The notes beneath the pieces are model-generated. The model ran no database searches. It was not told where the DNA came from and worked only from the letters and a program-made list of their open reading frames with translations. The position numbers were made by a program, and so were the translations under genes. Of a stretch of DNA of 64,000 nt, positions 8,787 through 64,000 are shown one piece after another; position 1 is the first letter of the stretch, and every line of letters begins with the position of its first letter. Where the stretch lies: assembly GCF_002831685.1 (NCBI RefSeq), contig NZ_CP025119.1, positions 2,626,001 to 2,690,000 of the forward strand, read 5' to 3'. This DNA comes from Polaribacter sp. ALD11 (GTDB lineage: Bacteria > Bacteroidota > Bacteroidia > Flavobacteriales > Flavobacteriaceae).

Positions 8787-10894
8787 TGTCTAAAACCGAT
8801 ATAAAAGTTGCTTTAATTGGGAATCCTAACACAGGAAAAACATCACTATTTAATCAACTTACAGGTTTAAACCAGAAAGTTGGTAATTACCCAGGAGTAA
8901 CTGTAGATAAAAAACAAGGTACAAGTAAGCTATCTTCTTCACAGAATGCTTTAATTACAGATCTACCAGGTACGTATAGTATAAACCCTACTTCTGTAGA
9001 CGAAAGTATTGTTTTAAAAACCTTACTTAAAAAAGATATTAAAGAATCACCAGATGTAATTCTAGTAGTTGCAGATGTAGAGAATTTAAAAAGAAATTTA
9101 TTACTTTTTTCACAAATAAAAGATTTAGAAATTCCGACGGTTTTGGCTATCAATATGGTAGATCAAATGACAAAAAAAGGAATTACTATTGATTTATCTG
9201 CACTAGAAAAAGAGCTAAATACAGAAGTTGTTCTAATTAGCGCAAGAAAAAATCAAGGAATAGACAACGTAAAAGCAGCAATTATTCGTTGTCATGTTGC
9301 AGCAAAAGCATCGCCTTTATGCGGAATAAATTCTAAAATTGATCCAGATTATTTTTCAAAATTAAAAGAAATTAGCCCAAATTATTCTTTGTATGAATTG
9401 TGGTTAATGGTTACTCAAAATAACTATCCAGATACCGTTAGTAAAGAAGAGAAGAGTAAACTTTTGGCTTTTAATCAAGATGTTTCTAAGTTGAAGAAAT
9501 ACCAACACAAAGAAACCATTTATCGTTATCAAGAAATTAATAAAATTTTAAAGAAAACATATATAATCGATAAAAGTAAAGCTACAGATGTAAGAGCAAA
9601 ATTAGACAAGGTTTTTACACATAAAATCTTTGGTTATGCAATTTTCTTTCTAATTTTACTCGTTATTTTTCAATCTATATTCGATTTGGCAACCGTACCA
9701 ATGGATTTTATTGATGCTACTTTTGCAGAATTCTCTGATTTTGTAAGAAACCAATTAGCACCAGGAGTTTTTACAGATTTATTGGCAGAAGGTATTATTC
9801 CGGGAATTGGTGGTGTTATTATTTTTATTCCACAAATAGCAATTTTATTCTTATTTATAGCTGTTTTAGAAGAAACTGGTTACATGAGTCGTGTGGTTTT
9901 TTTAATGGATAAAATTATGCGTCGTTTTGGTATGAATGGTAAAAGTGTTATCCCATTAATTTCTGGTACCGCTTGTGCAATACCTGCAATTATGGCAACC
10001 AGAACTATTTCTAGTTGGAAAGAGCGTTTGATAACTATTTTAGTAGTTCCGTTTACCACCTGTTCTGCGCGCCTACCAGTATATGCAATTTTAATATCTT
10101 TAGTTATTCCTAAGACTCAAATATTCGGATTTTTAAATTTGCAAGGTTTGGTTTTATTATCATTATATGGGTTGGGTTTTGCAACTGCTATTATAGCAGC
10201 GTATATTTTGCATAAAACATTAAAGGTAAAATCGAAGTCGTTTTTTGTCATAGAAATGCCGAATTACAAACTTCCTTCAATAAAAAATGTATTTTTTGAT
10301 GTTGTAGAAAAGACAAAGGCATTTGTTTTCGGAGCAGGAAAAATAATTTTAGCACTGTCTATTGTGTTATGGTTTTTGGCTTCTAACGGACCAGAATCTT
10401 ATAAAAATGCAGAAAAAAATACGATTGAAAATTTCGCTAATAAAAGTCTAAATGAAGACGAACTGAATCAAAAAATAGCATCTGCAAAATTAGAGAATTC
10501 TTATATTGGTATTATGGGTAAATCTATAGAACCTGCAATAAAACCTTTAGGATATGATTGGAAAATTGGTATTGCATTAATTACTTCTTTTGCAGCTCGT
10601 GAGGTTTTCGTAGGAACTTTAGCAACTATTTATAGTGTGGGGTCAGATGATGAAGATACCGCAACTATTAAAGAAAAAATGGCTTCTGAGGTAAATGAAA
10701 GTGGAGGCAAACTTTTTAACTTTCCTGTAGGAATGTCTTTGTTGGTTTTCTACGCTTTTGCCATGCAATGTATGGCAACTTTAGCGATTGTAAAGCGTGA
10801 AACTAAAACATGGAAATGGCCTTTAATTCAACTTTTTGGAATGACAGGATTGGCGTATATTTCCTCATTTATTATTTATCAAATATTAAGCTAA
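8786..10894 (+). CDS. feoB: Ferrous iron permease FeoB
   Basis: A 702-residue inner-membrane Fe(II) transporter. The cytoplasmic G domain has G1 at residues 12-19 (GNPNTGKT), G3 DLPG at 59-62 and G4 NMVD at 123-126. It is followed by a helical GDI-like region and about eight membrane segments from residue 280 on. The two Gate regions appear in the membrane part, including the ETGYMSR...MDKIMRRFGMNGKS area and a GTACAIPAI motif with Cys. The length is at the short end of the family, as is usual in Flavobacteriia. It overlaps feoA upstream and the small Cys-rich gene downstream by TAATG junctions. Confidence 0.97.
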   Translation: MSKTDIKVALIGNPNTGKTSLFNQLTGLNQKVGNYPGVTVDKKQGTSKLSSSQNALITDLPGTYSINPTSVDESIVLKTLLKKDIKESPDVILVVADVENLKRNLLLFSQIKDLEIPTVLAINMVDQMTKKGITIDLSALEKELNTEVVLISARKNQGIDNVKAAIIRCHVAAKASPLCGINSKIDPDYFSKLKEISPNYSLYELWLMVTQNNYPDTVSKEEKSKLLAFNQDVSKLKKYQHKETIYRYQEINKILKKTYIIDKSKATDVRAKLDKVFTHKIFGYAIFFLILLVIFQSIFDLATVPMDFIDATFAEFSDFVRNQLAPGVFTDLLAEGIIPGIGGVIIFIPQIAILFLFIAVLEETGYMSRVVFLMDKIMRRFGMNGKSVIPLISGTACAIPAIMATRTISSWKERLITILVVPFTTCSARLPVYAILISLVIPKTQIFGFLNLQGLVLLSLYGLGFATAIIAAYILHKTLKVKSKSFFVIEMPNYKLPSIKNVFFDVVEKTKAFVFGAGKIILALSIVLWFLASNGPESYKNAEKNTIENFANKSLNEDELNQKIASAKLENSYIGIMGKSIEPAIKPLGYDWKIGIALITSFAAREVFVGTLATIYSVGSDDEDTATIKEKMASEVNESGGKLFNFPVGMSLLVFYAFAMQCMATLAIVKRETKTWKWPLIQLFGMTGLAYISSFIIYQILS

Positions 10895-11010
10895 TGCAAG
10901 AAATACTCGTATACTTATTATTACTTATTGCTGTGTTTTTTCTATTGAAGAAATATGTATTTCCGTCTAAGAAAAAAGGAGATTGTAGTTCTGGTTGTGA
11001 TTGTCACTAA
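10894..11010 (+). CDS. FeoB-associated Cys-rich membrane protein, 38 residues
   Basis: The ATG at 10894 overlaps the feoB stop (TAATG), giving a 38-residue protein. It has one hydrophobic helix (about residues 4-18), a basic segment (KKYVFPSKKKGD) and a Cys-rich end, C31-x3-C35-x-C37-H38. Small proteins of this form are known next to feoB in many bacteria (FeoB-associated Cys-rich membrane protein, FeoC-like position) and may bind iron or a cluster, or steady the permease. A longer reading that begins at 10810 lies inside feoB and is not needed. The context makes the call firm despite the length. Confidence 0.9.
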   Translation: MQEILVYLLLLIAVFFLLKKYVFPSKKKGDCSSGCDCH

Positions 11011-11050
11011 TCTTAACAGAAAATTAATAACCTTTTTCTGTAATGATTTC

Positions 11051-11058
11051 TATTTTTG
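11051..11058 (+). promoter_or_regulatory. Candidate -7 element of the DUF2911 gene
   Basis: TATTTTTG matches TAnnTTTG and lies 40 bp before the ATG. A weak 8-bp inverted repeat at 11016-11041 just upstream may end the feo transcript. Confidence 0.35.
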
Positions 11059-11098
11059 TGAGACTAGAAACATACAACGTAATAAAACATATTTAACA

Positions 11099-11650
11099 AT
11101 GAAAAAATCAATCTTAGCGATTGCAATTTTTGCAATTACATTAATTAGCTCAACAGATACCTTTGCTCAGAAATGGAAAAAATTAGACGTAAGTCCTATG
11201 GATGCTTCTACATTTCCAGACAATTGGAGAGAATCTAACAAAGTATTAAAAGTAGTTTATGGTAGACCTCAATTAAAAGGAAGAGATCTTGATAAATTAG
11301 CGCCAATAGATAAGGTTTGGAGAACAGGTGCAAATGAAGCTGCAGAAATTACATTTTACAAAGATGTAGTTTTCGGAGGAAAAGAAGTGAAAGCAGGAAG
11401 CTATTCTTTGTTTACAATTCCGGTTGCAGAAGGAGATTGGACTGTTATTTTAAGTACAGCAAAGAATGTTTGGGGTCATTACACCTACAAACAAGAAGAA
11501 GATGTAGTTAGAGTTTCTGGGGTTGTTTCTAATTCAGATGAAAGCATAGAAGCGTTTTCTATGATGTTTGATGAAGATATGACTTTAAAAATGGGTTGGG
11601 CCAATACAGTAGTTTCTGTACCAATTAGTGCAGAAACTTCAGAAGATTAA
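11099..11650 (+). CDS. Exported DUF2911 protein
   Basis: A 183-residue protein with a clear Sec signal peptide (MKKSILAIAIFAITLI, cleavage likely after TFAQ near residue 24), so it acts in the periplasm or at the cell surface. The rest is a DUF2911 domain: the signature segments VVYGRPQLKGR, WRTGANEA and AGSYSLFTIP are all present. The family is widespread in Bacteroidota and its function is unknown. The ATG at 11099 was chosen because it begins the signal peptide; the longer frame from 10955 overlaps the Cys-rich gene. It has its own promoter candidate and a terminator, so it is probably a single-gene unit. Confidence 0.9.
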   Translation: MKKSILAIAIFAITLISSTDTFAQKWKKLDVSPMDASTFPDNWRESNKVLKVVYGRPQLKGRDLDKLAPIDKVWRTGANEAAEITFYKDVVFGGKEVKAGSYSLFTIPVAEGDWTVILSTAKNVWGHYTYKQEEDVVRVSGVVSNSDESIEAFSMMFDEDMTLKMGWANTVVSVPISAETSED

Positions 11651-58574: not shown

Positions 58575-58754
58575 TTAGAATCCGCTTCCAGGAGCTTCAG
58601 GGCTTGCAGCTTGAGCTTTCTGCGGATTTAAGATCATATAGGTTCCTAATGCAGTTAGGGCTGCATATTTACCATAGCTTCCAATTTTCTTAATAGCATC
58701 TTTACGAGTAATTTCTTGTGATTTATCGTGAGTATTTTCGTTTTGTTTTTTCAT
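58575..58754 (-). CDS. 59-residue exported peptide precursor, copy 1
   Basis: The ATG at 58754 (minus strand) opens 59 codons to TAA 58575-58577. The product has a charged N-terminus with TRKDAIKK at residues 16-23 (Tat-like, with RK in place of RR), a short hydrophobic helix (about 30-42), and AQA at 47-49, a good signal-peptidase site. Cleavage there would release ASPEAPGSGF (residues 50-59). The start lies 27 bp after the stop of the T9SS surface protein, so the two are cotranscribed. A copy with two changes and the same tail lies at 63143-63322. The function is unknown; a secreted signal or structural peptide is an inference. Confidence 0.85.
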   Translation of the reverse strand: MKKQNENTHDKSQEITRKDAIKKIGSYGKYAALTALGTYMILNPQKAQAASPEAPGSGF

Positions 58755-58781
58755 GATATTTTGTCTTTAAAATTCTCGTTA

Positions 58782-61700
58782 TTATTCTAAAATTATTTTT
58801 TTGTTTAATTTCCCGTTTTCTGTTTCAAGTTTTACTAAGTAAATACCTTTAGACAATTGTGGTAAAGAAATATCTTTAACACCAGTAGAATTAAAAGAGG
58901 TTTGTTTTACTTGTTTCCCTAAGATATTATAAATAGTTAAGTTTGTATTTCCTAAAGGTAAACCTGTAAGTCTTAAGTTAGAGTTATTAGTTTTATATAC
59001 ACTAACATTCTCTAAACTTAAGTTGTCTTTAACACTTAAAGACTTGTTATAAGTAGTATGAATGTAAAATTGACCAATATCTTTACTATCTTCTTCTAAA
59101 GTTATTTTATAGTCTTTTTCTGTAAGATTAATAAACTTATTATTTACTCTATCTTCTAAGAAAACATTTATATTTTCAGGTAGATTTAAACCTTCTATAG
59201 AAAATGTTAAGACTTCTTGTGATTTAGCAATAACTCCAACAGGTACTACCATGTCTTCGTAGTTTGCGTTTGGTAAAGCTTGTATGGCAAAATTTACACC
59301 ATTACTATTACTTGGTAAATGTGTAAAAATATTAAAATTAGAACTTACTCCTGTAAAAGTACCTATATCAGAACCAGGGTCTAAACCAATAGTTTTGTTT
59401 TCTATATATCTAATTTTTGTTGAAGAGTTTTTAGTTCCATCAGTAAGTTGTAAAATAATTTCTGGATAGCTTGTACCACTTTTTAGAAAAATATCTCCAG
59501 AATGGTGATTTTGCATGTCTTCAGTAAAACTAACATAAGTACCACCTGCATCAGGAGCATGAACAAAAAATCCTTGTCCTGGAGCAATATAGAAGGCTGC
59601 ATCATCTACAGATTTTTCTACATAATTTGTTCCATCCCATAAATATAAACCAGCTCTTGAAGGATCAAGGTTTTCGGCATCAATATTTACTTTCAAAAAG
59701 TTATTCGTTGCATCAGCAGTATTACTACCACTTAAAGGTGCTGTATATGGGTTACCTACTAAGTTCCATCTATTTCCTGCAGGGTTATCTCCACCATCAG
59801 TAATAGGGTAAGTTTTATCAGTAGTATTTAAAGTTCCTGAGAAAATTAAGTTACCTGCAGTACTTTTTTGTATTGAATATCCTTTACCTGCAGTATATGT
59901 TCCTGCAGTAGTTAGGGGGTTTGCACCTGTTCCTATACCTGTTGCACCTGTGTAGTAGTTCCAACGAGAAGCACTTACAACGTTATTTACATAAGGAGCA
60001 ATTGCATATTTATTTCCACTAGTATTAACCTTTCCAGAATGACTACTAATGTTTATACCTGAAATTGGAGCGGAAATTAAATGCCAGTTTGCACTTAAAT
60101 CTCTCTTATAATTAACATTACTAATTCCTGTATGATTTCCTTTAAGTATTAAAGAACCGTTAGTACCCCAATTTGATAATATAGTTAATTCTCCATTTTG
60201 GTTCAAATTACCGTTGATTGTTATAGAATAACCTTCTACTATATACAAAACTCCACCTATACTTATACTTAAATCGTTCACAGTAACATTTGTTTTATCT
60301 AAGAAAATAATTTTAGTAGCTACATCAACATTATCTGTGCTAATAGGTAATCTTCCTAATGACCAGTTACTAAGAACTGACCACACTCCAAATGCTGGGA
60401 TAAATAAATTTGTTTGATTTGCTTGTGTTGTGAAATTTAAAGAAGTAGCATCAGTAAGAGCAATACCTGCATAATTATTACCAAGAGCATCTTTAAAAGC
60501 TGTATTACTTATTTGAATATAATAGCCTGTATTTAAATCAAAATCAGAAGAAAGATTTATAGTCACAGTATTAGTCTCTACAGTAACAGCAGCTGTAGTA
60601 ACATCTATAACTTCAAAAGATCTATCATCTGATGTCTGTCTTATAAATATATATCCTGTTCCCTTACTAATATTTTCATTAAATGTTAATGTAATATTTT
60701 GGTTAAGAACTACTCCTGTTGAGTCGTCTGTAGGGTTAGAGGAAGTTAAAGTTGGGCCAGCATTATCTACAACAAACGTATTATTGTTCGTTCCTGTTGA
60801 TGTTAAATTAGTTAATACATTACCAACTATATCAGTAATATTTTGTCCACTTGCAAAAGCTAAGGTAACTGTTGCGTTTAAACTTGCTAAATTTCCACCA
60901 GAAGTTGTTACTCTGTAAACATTCCCACTTGGGTTAGTTACCGATGCAATTGATGCGGTTGTTCCGTTAACTGAAAAATCATCTGCACTTACATTTACTA
61001 CAGCGCTATCAAAAGTTACATCCCATACTAAGGCATCTGCATTTGTAGGGCTTGTTGTAGGGCTTTGACGAGTAATACTGCTAATAAGTGGATTAGTATT
61101 ATCTAATACAAACGTATTATTGTTTGTACCAGTTGGTGTTAAATTAGTTAATACATTACTAGAAGCATCAGTAATATTTTGTCCACTTGCAAAAACTAAG
61201 GTAACTGTTGCATTTAAACTTGCTAAATTTCCACCAGAAGTTGTTACTCTGTATACATTCCCATTTGGGTTAGTTACCGATGCAATTGATGCAGTTGTTC
61301 CGTTAACTGAAAAATCATTTTCACTTACATTTACTACAGCGCTATCAAAAGTTACATCCCAAGCTAAAGCATCAGCATTTGTTGCACTAGTTGTTGGGCT
61401 TTGACGAGTAATACTTGTAATACCAGGAGCAATACCATCAATAGCGATAGCTGTATTAGCACCTAAAGAGTTAGCAGCACCTGGAGAAGCTAATGTTAAT
61501 GTAGCATTACTACCACCAGCATCCTGAATACTAGTTCCTGCAGTTAATGAGTTTATTGCCGTATAATCTAAATCTGCACTTTCATCTCCCGCTTGAACAG
61601 TATATGTAAAGAAAAGGGTATTACTACCACTACCAGTTCCATTATAATTAATGGTTCTATCTATTGTACCAGTTTCTAAAGTTAATTGAGGTGTACCAGA

Positions 61701-62753
61701 AACAGTTACGTTTTCTGAGAATATAACACTAATTATTATATCATTACCAGTACCGTACGTTCCATTAGATGTAAAAGAGCTTACACCATTTATAATAGGT
61801 GCTACTGCACTTGATATAACCGTAGTTGTATTATCTGTAGTTGTATCTGCACTATCATTAACAGCAACTGTAAAAGTTGTAATTTCTGAAGTGCTTGTTC
61901 TGTTGTCTGTTGGGTTAAAGGATAATGCTCTTAATTTAGCTTGTAAATCTAAAGGAGAAGTACTTGCTATAACATAAGGTCCTGAACCAGTTAAACTAGT
62001 ACCAGTTAAAACACCTTTTGCATTATCATCTAAAGTTATAGTTGCAGATAGGTTATCTCCATCTGCATCTGAAGTTGTTATGGAAGAAAAGGGAGTTAGA
62101 GTAGCATTGTCATTTACTGTTTGTCCTGCAGAAGTACCACCAATTACTGGAACTGTGTTCGCAACAACTGCATCCCATTTAAAAGCATCTAAACCTAAAT
62201 AATCTAAATTTCCAGTTCCAGAAAAAACTAATTCATCTATTATTTTGTTAGAATTATCTACACCTCCTTCTGAAACAAAATTAATATGTGTATAACCATT
62301 ACTAGGAGTAAAATTAGGTTTTACATCTGCAAAACCATTAGTTTTAGTAATTGTGAAAACTGGAGTGGTATTACCATCTTTTTTACCAATTATTGTTAAG
62401 GTGCCAGTATGTGCACTCAATGTTTTTCTGGAACAAAAAAGATATAATTCTTTTACGGTAAAATAATTTGTATTATTAGTTTTTATTGTAAAGTTAGTTC
62501 CGTCATTTTCAATATATTGACTTTTATTGTCTATAAATTTATTATCTGCACCACTACCATTCCAACCAGCACCATTGAATAATTCTATATTATATAAATC
62601 TCCTGGAGAAGTAGAAGTTATATTAAATACCTGGCCATTATTGGTAAAAGATCTTGAGCCAGTAGTTTCAGTCTCAAAATCTTCCGTAGTTTGAGCAAAC
62701 GAGAAGTTGCTAATTAAAATAAATAAAAATAAAAAATGAGTAATTTTTTTCAT
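58782..62753 (-). CDS. T9SS type A sorted surface protein, 1,323 residues
   Basis: A large secreted protein. Signal peptide at residues 1-20 (SNFSFAQ), then a lectin-like/beta-sandwich region (about 25-200) and Ig-like repeats. Two are near-identical 112-residue units with ITRQSPTTSxTNADAL, VNVSxxDFSVNGTTASIASV and NVLTNLTxTGTNNNTF (about residues 440-665). An SbsA-type Ig domain follows (SNPTDDSTGVVLNQNI), then a long region with WHLISAPISG and WNLVGNPYTAP. It ends in a T9SS type A domain (LTIYNILGKQVKQTSF, LPQLSKGIYLVKLETENGK). The C-terminal 190 residues are very similar to the partial gene at 63351. T9SS cleaves that domain and anchors the protein on the surface. No enzymatic domain is recognised. 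The 59-residue peptide gene follows directly. Confidence 0.92.
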   Translation of the reverse strand: MKKITHFLFLFILISNFSFAQTTEDFETETTGSRSFTNNGQVFNITSTSPGDLYNIELFNGAGWNGSGADNKFIDNKSQYIENDGTNFTIKTNNTNYFTVKELYLFCSRKTLSAHTGTLTIIGKKDGNTTPVFTITKTNGFADVKPNFTPSNGYTHINFVSEGGVDNSNKIIDELVFSGTGNLDYLGLDAFKWDAVVANTVPVIGGTSAGQTVNDNATLTPFSSITTSDADGDNLSATITLDDNAKGVLTGTSLTGSGPYVIASTSPLDLQAKLRALSFNPTDNRTSTSEITTFTVAVNDSADTTTDNTTTVISSAVAPIINGVSSFTSNGTYGTGNDIIISVIFSENVTVSGTPQLTLETGTIDRTINYNGTGSGSNTLFFTYTVQAGDESADLDYTAINSLTAGTSIQDAGGSNATLTLASPGAANSLGANTAIAIDGIAPGITSITRQSPTTSATNADALAWDVTFDSAVVNVSENDFSVNGTTASIASVTNPNGNVYRVTTSGGNLASLNATVTLVFASGQNITDASSNVLTNLTPTGTNNNTFVLDNTNPLISSITRQSPTTSPTNADALVWDVTFDSAVVNVSADDFSVNGTTASIASVTNPSGNVYRVTTSGGNLASLNATVTLAFASGQNITDIVGNVLTNLTSTGTNNNTFVVDNAGPTLTSSNPTDDSTGVVLNQNITLTFNENISKGTGYIFIRQTSDDRSFEVIDVTTAAVTVETNTVTINLSSDFDLNTGYYIQISNTAFKDALGNNYAGIALTDATSLNFTTQANQTNLFIPAFGVWSVLSNWSLGRLPISTDNVDVATKIIFLDKTNVTVNDLSISIGGVLYIVEGYSITINGNLNQNGELTILSNWGTNGSLILKGNHTGISNVNYKRDLSANWHLISAPISGINISSHSGKVNTSGNKYAIAPYVNNVVSASRWNYYTGATGIGTGANPLTTAGTYTAGKGYSIQKSTAGNLIFSGTLNTTDKTYPITDGGDNPAGNRWNLVGNPYTAPLSGSNTADATNNFLKVNIDAENLDPSRAGLYLWDGTNYVEKSVDDAAFYIAPGQGFFVHAPDAGGTYVSFTEDMQNHHSGDIFLKSGTSYPEIILQLTDGTKNSSTKIRYIENKTIGLDPGSDIGTFTGVSSNFNIFTHLPSNSNGVNFAIQALPNANYEDMVVPVGVIAKSQEVLTFSIEGLNLPENINVFLEDRVNNKFINLTEKDYKITLEEDSKDIGQFYIHTTYNKSLSVKDNLSLENVSVYKTNNSNLRLTGLPLGNTNLTIYNILGKQVKQTSFNSTGVKDISLPQLSKGIYLVKLETENGKLNKKIILE
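60761..61432 (-). repeat. Two 336-bp tandem repeats in the T9SS protein gene
   Basis: The 19-base stretch GGGCTTTGACGAGTAATAC (plus strand) recurs 336 bp apart at 61060 and 61396, and the 112-codon units around it are nearly identical. Confidence 0.85.
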
Positions 62754-63134: not shown

Positions 63135-63840
63135 CTTAATTATTAAAATCCGCTTCCAGGAGCCTCAGGGCTTGCAGCTTGTGCTTTCTGTGGACTTAAG
63201 ATCATATAGGTTCCTAATGCAGTTAGGGCTGCATATTTACCATAGCTTCCAATTTTCTTAATAGCATCTTTACGAGTAATTTCTTGCGGTTTATCGTGAG
63301 TATTTTCGTTTTGTTTTTTCATGATGTTTTGTCTTTTAAAATTACTGTAATTATTCTAAAATTATTTTCTTATTCAATTTGCCGTTTTCTGTTTCAAGTT
63401 TTACTAAGTAAATACCTTTAGACAATTGTGGTAAAGAAATATCTTTAACACCATTAGAATTAAAAGAGGTTTGTTTTACTTGTTTCCCTAAGATATTATA
63501 AATAGTTAAGTTTGTATTTCCTAAAGGTAAACCTGTAAGTCTTAAGTTAGAATTGTTAGTTTTATATACGCTAACATTGTCTAAGTTTAAGTTATTTTCT
63601 ATACTTAAAGATTTGCTAGAAGTAGTATGTATGTAAAATTGACCTACATCTTTACTATCTTCTTCTAAAGTTATTTTATAGTCTTTTTCTGTAAGATTAA
63701 TAAACTTATTATTTACTCTATCTTCTAAGAAAACATTTATATTTTCAGGTAAATTTAAGCTTTCAATAGAAAGTGTTAAAGTTTCGTTCGCTTTAGCAAT
63801 AATTCCTATAGGTATTACCATGTCTTCATAATTACTTTTA
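63135..63840. repeat. Duplicated segment, second copy of 58567-59270
   Basis: The 59-residue gene, the short gap and about 160 codons of the T9SS protein end are highly similar in both places, offset by about 4,569 bp. The orientation is the same, so it is a direct tandem duplication that includes the 3' half of one gene and a whole small gene. Confidence 0.85.
63143..63322 (-). CDS. 59-residue exported peptide precursor, copy 2
   Basis: The ATG at 63322 (minus strand) opens 59 codons to TAA 63143-63145. The product differs from copy 1 at residues 12 (Pro for Ser) and 43 (Ser for Asn) only. It keeps TRKDAIKK, the hydrophobic helix, AQA at 47-49 and the same ASPEAPGSGF end. Silent changes are scattered, for example in the Glu and Ala codons of the tail, so protein sequence appears to be under selection. 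It lies 28 bp after the stop of the second T9SS protein. Function unknown. Confidence 0.85.
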   Translation of the reverse strand: MKKQNENTHDKPQEITRKDAIKKIGSYGKYAALTALGTYMILSPQKAQAASPEAPGSGF

Positions 63841-64000
63841 GGTAGTGTTTGAATTGCTAGTTTTCTACCATCGTTATCACTTAATAATTGAGTATATACA
63901 GCTAAATCATATGTTACACCACCAAACATTTTAGAATCATATCCATTGTCAAAGCCTTTGGTCTTATTTTCTGCATAAAATACTCTTGTAGATTTTTTAT
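63351..64000 (-). CDS. T9SS type A sorted surface protein, C-terminal part only
   Basis: The frame runs past the right edge, so only the last 216 or so residues are visible. The ATG at 63929 is internal: upstream codons continue in frame with KSTRVFYAENKTKGFDNG, which aligns with SSTKIRYIENKTIGLDPG of the complete paralogue at 58782. The C-terminal region has the linker NLPENINVFLEDRVNNKF and a type A T9SS sorting domain (LTIYNILGKQVKQTSF, LPQLSKGIYLVKLETENG), almost identical to the paralogue. The protein is followed by the second 59-residue gene. The N-terminal domains, and so the role, cannot be seen. Confidence 0.9.
   Translation of the reverse strand, partial: KKSTRVFYAENKTKGFDNGYDSKMFGGVTYDLAVYTQLLSDNDGRKLAIQTLPKSNYEDMVIPIGIIAKANETLTLSIESLNLPENINVFLEDRVNNKFINLTEKDYKITLEEDSKDVGQFYIHTTSSKSLSIENNLNLDNVSVYKTNNSNLRLTGLPLGNTNLTIYNILGKQVKQTSFNSNGVKDISLPQLSKGIYLVKLETENGKLNKKIILE

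Follow-up and report, generated by a model that had tools for sequence, protein, structure and literature searches.

A conserved 59-residue peptide gene paired with RemA-like type IX secretion proteins in Polaribacter and relatives, and a predicted RiPP-like modification system

The window, a stretch of 64,000 nucleotides from the Polaribacter sp. ALD11 genome (NZ_CP025119.1, positions 2,626,001 to 2,690,000), carries near its end two minus-strand units, in each of which a gene for a surface protein of the type IX secretion system (T9SS) is followed by a small gene for a 59-residue peptide, called SP below; KIN and NTP denote a kinase-like protein and a nucleotidyltransferase that occur with it. 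SP copy 1 (58575..58754) starts 27 bp (58755..58781) after the stop of the gene for surface protein 1 (58782..62753, 1323 aa, with a Big_5 domain). SP copy 2 (63143..63322) starts 28 bp (63323..63350) after that for surface protein 2, whose C-terminal part (63351..64000) runs off the window (1334 aa at full length, L006:852-4856). With 40.1 and 44.1 bits against TIGR04183, above the curated cut-off of 23, both surface proteins are of type A. Within SP copy 1, codons 15-49 (58608..58712) encode a conserved leader or signal-like region, ITRKDAIKK...ILNPQKAQA, and codons 50-59 (58578..58607) a predicted mature tail, ASPEAPGSGF, in which the Ser51 codon (58602..58604), eight residues before the end, specifies a putative phosphorylation site. 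As read from the open reading frames (ORFs), each copy ends in AQA-ASPEAPGSGF, and the two genes are 7 nucleotides apart in 6 codons, comprising two replacements outside the tail (S12P and N43S) and four silent changes (codons 44, 47, 53 and 59). In all these respects, namely the paired 59-residue products with their common ten-residue ending, the gap of about 28 bp, the type A neighbour and the position of the replacements, the preliminary description of the window was accurate.

The unit that it called duplicated is indeed present twice in the window, but the 3.57 Mb single-contig genome holds five SP copies (C1:2684578, 2689146, 2694762, 3384459 and 839377), three of them in one cluster, of which the third lies at L006:6260-6439. 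Since all five are located directly behind a TIGR04183 protein, with gaps of 18-28 bp, in a genome with 33 TIGR04183 matches (32 above the cut-off), the arrangement is not a matter of chance. The same pairing is found in relatives. Among 83 loci, comprising the best 80 of 483 from a scan of named genomes and three stretches of the source genome, and coming mostly from Polaribacter, with some from Tenacibaculum, one from Cellulophaga and the rest from Flavobacteriaceae or Bacteroidia, 89 SP ORFs were called (4 from the source genome), and 87 of these have a T9SS ORF 9-52 bp upstream. The exceptions are the copy in L117 and one in L070 that lies 50 bp from the locus edge. Thus, SP stands beside the same kind of T9SS gene in other genomes, as the preliminary description had suggested checking. 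ORFs were called from ATG only, and four further SPs behind surface proteins were missed in this way and matched later, that in L070 at only E 0.0018. In two loci the protein directly before SP is a miniature T9SS protein (L041:1255-1488, 77 aa; L054:1352-1486, 44 aa), in which a signal peptide is almost directly joined to the final portion of a sorting domain; these are probably deletion remnants with the ends of the unit kept.

The surface proteins linked to SP differ from other type A proteins in their C-terminal parts. In surface protein 1, a conserved module of about 420 residues (59010..60344, minus strand) stands ahead of a sorting domain (the C-terminal domain, CTD; 58785..59009, minus strand) without the PNP motif. 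This motif is absent from all SP-linked CTDs, whether of the source genome (0 of 5) or of the fetched loci (0 of 86; four proteins are counted in both), and present in most unlinked ones (15 of 20 and 33 of 49, respectively). In these counts [YFHA]SNP was also taken as PNP, one linked and one unlinked CTD shorter than 60 aa were set aside, and 25 of the 33 CTDs of the source genome were entered (27 loci tried, two not extracted, six matches not tried). The module occurs in 86 of 87 linked proteins, including 80 of 80 long ones, and among unlinked proteins in 0 of 33 with PNP and 11 of 17 without; because its hidden Markov model was seeded by 19 linked sequences, the linked count is partly in-sample. 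A search for missed SPs gave a match behind four of these 11 unlinked proteins, one of them weak, and behind no unlinked PNP protein. Module and CTD are homologous to Flavobacterium johnsoniae RemA (8gl6_D, 1.8e-36) and RemZ (1.1e-25), and in a predicted model of module plus CTD (mean pLDDT 85) the CTD matches the fold of 8gl6_D with a root mean square deviation of 2.0 over 75 columns. Beyond the CTD, the matches from Foldseek were for the most part multi-domain chains of fibronectin- or Ig-like type, with large deviations, and were not used. The RemA and RemZ CTDs have been solved in the T9SS translocon (PDB 8gl6 and 8gl8; PMC10994853), and RemA is described as a type A adhesin found partly in anchored and partly in released form (PMC12618676). 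The N-terminal parts of the module proteins vary (Big_5, Ig_7, G8, NHL, LTD and others), so that the term adhesin is taken from the C-terminal part. SP therefore marks a distinct PNP-less, RemA-like subclass of type A T9SS proteins, sharing with RemA and RemZ the module and the PNP-less CTD but differing from them in that the module protein is paired with SP.

SP itself has no family in Pfam or NCBIfam, and its sequence gave a single weak and unrelated match in the PDB (lumazine synthase, 0.17). It is nevertheless a real, conserved gene within a four-gene system and is plainly under selection at the protein level. Over all pairs pooled from 90 sequences, the ratio of non-synonymous to synonymous differences (pN/pS) is lowest in residues 15-49 (0.09), against 0.65 in residues 1-14 and 0.35 in the tail. 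This makes the supposed export signal the most conserved part, with R17, A20, T34, A35, G37, L42 and P44 invariant in 106 distinct peptides, which fits a leader read by a specific enzyme and is unlike a plain signal peptide. The tail, which the preliminary description took as fixed, is the same in both window copies but varies across genomes: Ser51 alone is invariant (106/106), Pro52, Pro55 and Gly56 are nearly so, and in the last aligned column 97 of the 106 have F and 4 have W. Ser51 is encoded by AGY in 71 of 90 genes and by TCN in 19, so that with both codon boxes in use it is the residue and not the codon that is kept. Tail identity is 85% within and 79% between genomes, which may reflect a slight within-genome homogenisation. 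SP thus has the make-up of a precursor of a ribosomally synthesized and post-translationally modified peptide (RiPP), namely a short gene-encoded product with a conserved leader and a downstream core.

One SP copy outside the window, about 0.7 Mb away, is followed by genes for KIN and NTP; the other four copies of the source genome lie far from these enzymes. In the fetched loci a kinase-like ORF lies within 400 bp downstream of 14 of the 89 SPs. KIN was found in 15 loci, of which 14 were read by eye (all except L066, where NTP is in two pieces), giving the order T9SS gene, SP, KIN and, in some cases, NTP. No other ORF of at least 100 aa is common to these 14 cassettes, shorter ORFs besides SP not being listed. 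The C-terminal half of KIN resembles HprK kinases and carries HprK-like motifs. TIGR04352 (HprK-related kinase A) is matched by 13 of 13 KINs scanned (best 3.1e-17) in that half only, with scores of 53.1, 41.8, 61.4 and 55 bits that stay below the family cut-off of 200. Because KIN sequences gave only weak PDB matches (E 0.38-0.76), a fold model was needed, and in it the N-terminal domain matches leader-bound lasso B1 RiPP recognition elements (RREs), to which sequence matches are weak. The N-terminal domain is therefore predicted to be RRE-like, so that, as a predicted fold, a leader-binding domain of the RiPP kind is joined to a putative modifying enzyme. NTP matches PF14907 at 4.4e-35. In one genome (L154, G123:C1:723000-731500) the KIN-NTP pair lies away from SP and adjoins, by eye, sugar-nucleotide and NusG-like genes; clusters for paeninodin and for linear polyphosphorylated peptides (LPP) are often located within capsule loci. 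At another locus (L152, G217:C19:22500-30500) KIN is in its usual place while the T9SS gene, SP and NTP are gone, which is a decaying cassette. A defence system was considered and rejected, as PADLOC gave no match for SP, KIN, NTP or the T9SS protein of the window. With no SP family in Pfam or NCBIfam and four of five copies far from the enzymes, ordinary annotation would miss the system.

The four components also occur together across genomes, counted irrespective of relatedness. In the family sample (199 genomes, 165 of them good, with completeness of at least 90% and contamination of at most 5%), SP is present in 20 genomes (15 good), KIN in 20 (15 good) and NTP in 18 (15 good); the same 15 of the 165 good genomes carry all three and the other 150 none, and the discordant genomes are all incomplete (G136 with SP only, G048 with KIN and NTP only, G067 and G151 without NTP). 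The separate location of KIN-NTP in G123 indicates that this co-occurrence is not explained by linkage alone. Among 84 good genomes of the genus, 78 have SP and KIN, one SP only (G208), one KIN only (G217) and four neither; the corresponding numbers for all 116 genomes are 94, 7, 3 and 12. The 84 good genomes hold 353 SPs and 84 KINs, with up to 17 precursors per genome in the genus, so that one KIN usually serves several SPs. In the genus, the good genomes with a strong module (best E <1e-50) are the same 79 as those with SP, and SP and module copy numbers are correlated (Spearman 0.90, with up to 15 module candidates per genome scored). Large queries had only some of their first-look candidates scored (9 or 10, 15 or 17 per genome), and module counts are accordingly lower bounds. 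In the phylum sample SP was found in 5 of 345 genomes, all Flavobacteriaceae; it was thus seen only in kin at about that family level, F. johnsoniae not being searched. SP follows one T9SS subclass from gene to gene and, within the genus, also from genome to genome, in line with the dedicated partner of a surface protein envisaged in the preliminary description, and more loosely in the family, where at least 22 of 199 genomes have a module below 1e-50, 19 of them with SP.

Several observations weigh against a strict tie between SP and the module. A strong module is present in G048 together with KIN and NTP but no SP, and in G121 (good) and G066 (incomplete) without SP, KIN or NTP; a single SP accompanies 6-9 module matches in each of G157, G045 and G097; behind a sixth strong-module T9SS protein of the source genome (L015, G000:C1:2952563) no SP was found; and at a threshold of 1e-15 the module is widespread in the family (matches in at least 94 of 199 genomes). 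In G121 the strong-module protein is followed by a second T9SS protein (L153, G121:C1:471500-479500), which indicates that the module can persist without SP.

KIN and NTP shift the reading of SP from the small secreted product of the preliminary description, of which the partnership with a surface protein stands, to a RiPP-like precursor. We consider that SP is probably the precursor of a ribosomally made, modified linear peptide serving RemA-like T9SS surface proteins, a view built on the gene and its copies, their adjacency to one surface-protein subclass, the co-occurrence with KIN and NTP, the invariant serine, the RRE-like predicted fold and the HprK-like motifs. From these we infer a shared transcript, a set of biochemical steps, an export route and a final role, as follows. 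SP and the surface protein would come from a single transcript. KIN, of which a genome usually has one, would act in the cytoplasm, its N-terminal RRE domain binding the conserved SP leader and its HprK-type domain phosphorylating Ser51 just beyond that leader, after which the PF14907 nucleotidyltransferase might extend the phosphate by another group, possibly a sugar. The leader, which is also export-signal-like, would then carry the peptide across the inner membrane and be cleaved off after AQA, and the modified tail would act together with the surface protein at the envelope, where it would contribute to the folding, secretion or anchoring of that protein.

SP could instead be an unmodified small partner of the RemA-like protein, secreted or inserted into the membrane as a chaperone, pilot or regulator, with KIN and NTP having another target, for instance the RemA-like protein itself or a surface glycan. 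The tracking of the module by SP, gene by gene and in copy number within the genus, would suit such a partner, as would the position of KIN-NTP beside sugar-nucleotide genes (by eye) and away from SP in G123. We nonetheless regard it as unlikely, as the predicted RRE fold of KIN is one that binds peptide leaders in known systems, SP and KIN agree in 165 of 165 good family genomes, and the supposed export signal is the best conserved part of SP, which is unexpected for a plain signal peptide. Less likely still is a modified peptide released as a signal or antimicrobial and merely co-expressed with a surface protein that is not its target. RiPPs often have such roles, and the many precursor copies and the variable positions of the tail would be in keeping with one; the tail is, however, well conserved, at the within- and between-genome identities given above, which typical toxin or quorum cores are not, reading the 14 cassettes by eye revealed neither an immunity nor an exporter gene, SP is linked to one T9SS subclass and not to T9SS genes in general, and PADLOC found no match. 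Export of an unmodified peptide by the twin-arginine translocation (Tat) pathway, to which the preliminary description pointed in likening TRKDAIKK to a Tat motif with RK for RR, is very improbable and was rejected: TRK[ED]A[IL]K can be aligned by eye with the twin-arginine motif, and TatC is present, but RR, the preferred Tat pair, occurs in 0 of 106 distinct SPs (105 RK with K18 kept, 1 RN), and TatC, which every one of the 84 good genus genomes has, the five without SP among them, discriminates nothing.

As a modified precursor, SP and its enzymes seem closest to the LPP systems of Bacillota, LPP-like in working though not filed as LPP. An LPP set, according to a 2026 report, consists of an RRE, the HprK-like kinase LppK, an NTP transferase, a signal-peptidase-type leader peptidase and an exporter; LppK puts several phosphates on core Ser3, the S3A replacement abolishes this loading, and LppN had no detectable effect in the host used (PMC13381572). 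Both systems share an HprK-like kinase, which for KIN is a partial match below the family cut-off, an uncharacterised NTP transferase, here a PF14907 protein in 15 of 15 good family SP genomes, an RRE, and a small precursor with a conserved N-terminal part. In both, a serine stands just past a signal-peptidase-like cleavage site, phosphorylated in the LPP core AQS and predicted to be so in KAQA|xS of SP, and no macrolactam cyclase is seen in either cassette, by eye here and as far as the available part of that report goes. By contrast, the RRE is discrete in LPP but an RRE-like domain is fused to the kinase here; the LPP clusters have their own SpI-type peptidase and MsbA-like exporter, neither of which is apparent by eye in the 14 SP cassettes (no family search was made of the flanks, and none elsewhere in the genomes); and the LPP leader motif YxxPxVLxHQxIxFETxxS is absent from the SP alignment, in which the leader is signal-peptide-like. 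LPP clusters hold 1-3 precursors as against up to 17 dispersed SPs per genome, and belong to Bacillota, whereas SP stands nearly always behind a T9SS protein in Flavobacteriaceae. Paeninodin and pseudomycoidin (PMC8498205) likewise involve an HprK-homologue kinase and a nucleotidyltransferase acting on a peptide serine; their kinase target is a C-terminal serine, which the candidate serine of SP is not, and neither a lasso cyclase (C) nor a B2 protease is apparent by eye in the 14 SP cassettes, with no search made elsewhere in the genomes.

The combination is unusual, in that RiPPs with an HprK-type kinase are already known while the T9SS surface-protein partner is new in the open-licence literature searched. 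That literature yielded nothing on the T9SS with HPr kinase, with or without nucleotidyltransferase, nothing on type IX secretion with leader and precursor peptide or under PF14907 names, and for type IX secretion with RiPP only matches unrelated by title and the start of the abstract; the word kinase is absent from an RRE-definition paper (PMC12710340), and kinase and lasso from one on Flavobacteriaceae natural products (PMC10734526). The preliminary statement that nothing of this kind had been described accordingly holds for the T9SS link within this literature and not for the related biochemistry of LPP (PMC13381572). The Discussion of that report gives the roles of LPP and paeninodin as unknown. 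In the SP system, LPP-like enzymes in another phylum are linked, at the level of single genes, to a particular class of secreted surface protein, which makes the role of the peptide testable. How PorU selects effectors for release or attachment is an open question of the T9SS (PMC10202324), and the SP system bears on it, given that SP sets apart one subclass of type A CTDs.

A more specific and doubtful proposal is that the matured xSPxxPGxGF peptide, phosphorylated and perhaps glycosylated, might be a gene-encoded anchor or acceptor, with the sortase PorU, once the surface protein has been exported by the T9SS, cutting the PNP-less CTD and joining the protein to the free amine of the peptide and not to lipopolysaccharide. 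Speculatively, every such gene would then supply its own anchor and one kinase would activate them all. PorU reportedly uses anionic lipopolysaccharide (A-LPS), amino acids or short peptides as acceptors, the A-LPS acceptor being a seryl sugar (PMC10202324). The Porphyromonas gingivalis system would thus offer, for this proposal only, a parallel in the small amine-bearing, serine-containing acceptor for anchoring of type A cargo, but its acceptor is a sugar on A-LPS and not a gene-encoded peptide. If true, the proposal would give Bacteroidota a peptide-based route of surface attachment and polyphosphorylated RiPPs their first biological role.

Other features were observed around the surface proteins. 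Phage tail collar-domain proteins lie near module proteins in the source genome's neighbourhood of SP (L006:4923-5591 and 10747-11313, both matching PF07484) and, by eye, in five further loci (L112:3151-3741, L115, L126, L127 and L138). Elsewhere in the window (32363-52825), a 5843-aa ORF is followed by ORFs that are PorP/SprF-like and OmpA/PorE-like by eye, near type A proteins; the arrangement suggests a giant type B T9SS adhesin accompanied by its shuttle and cell-wall partner.
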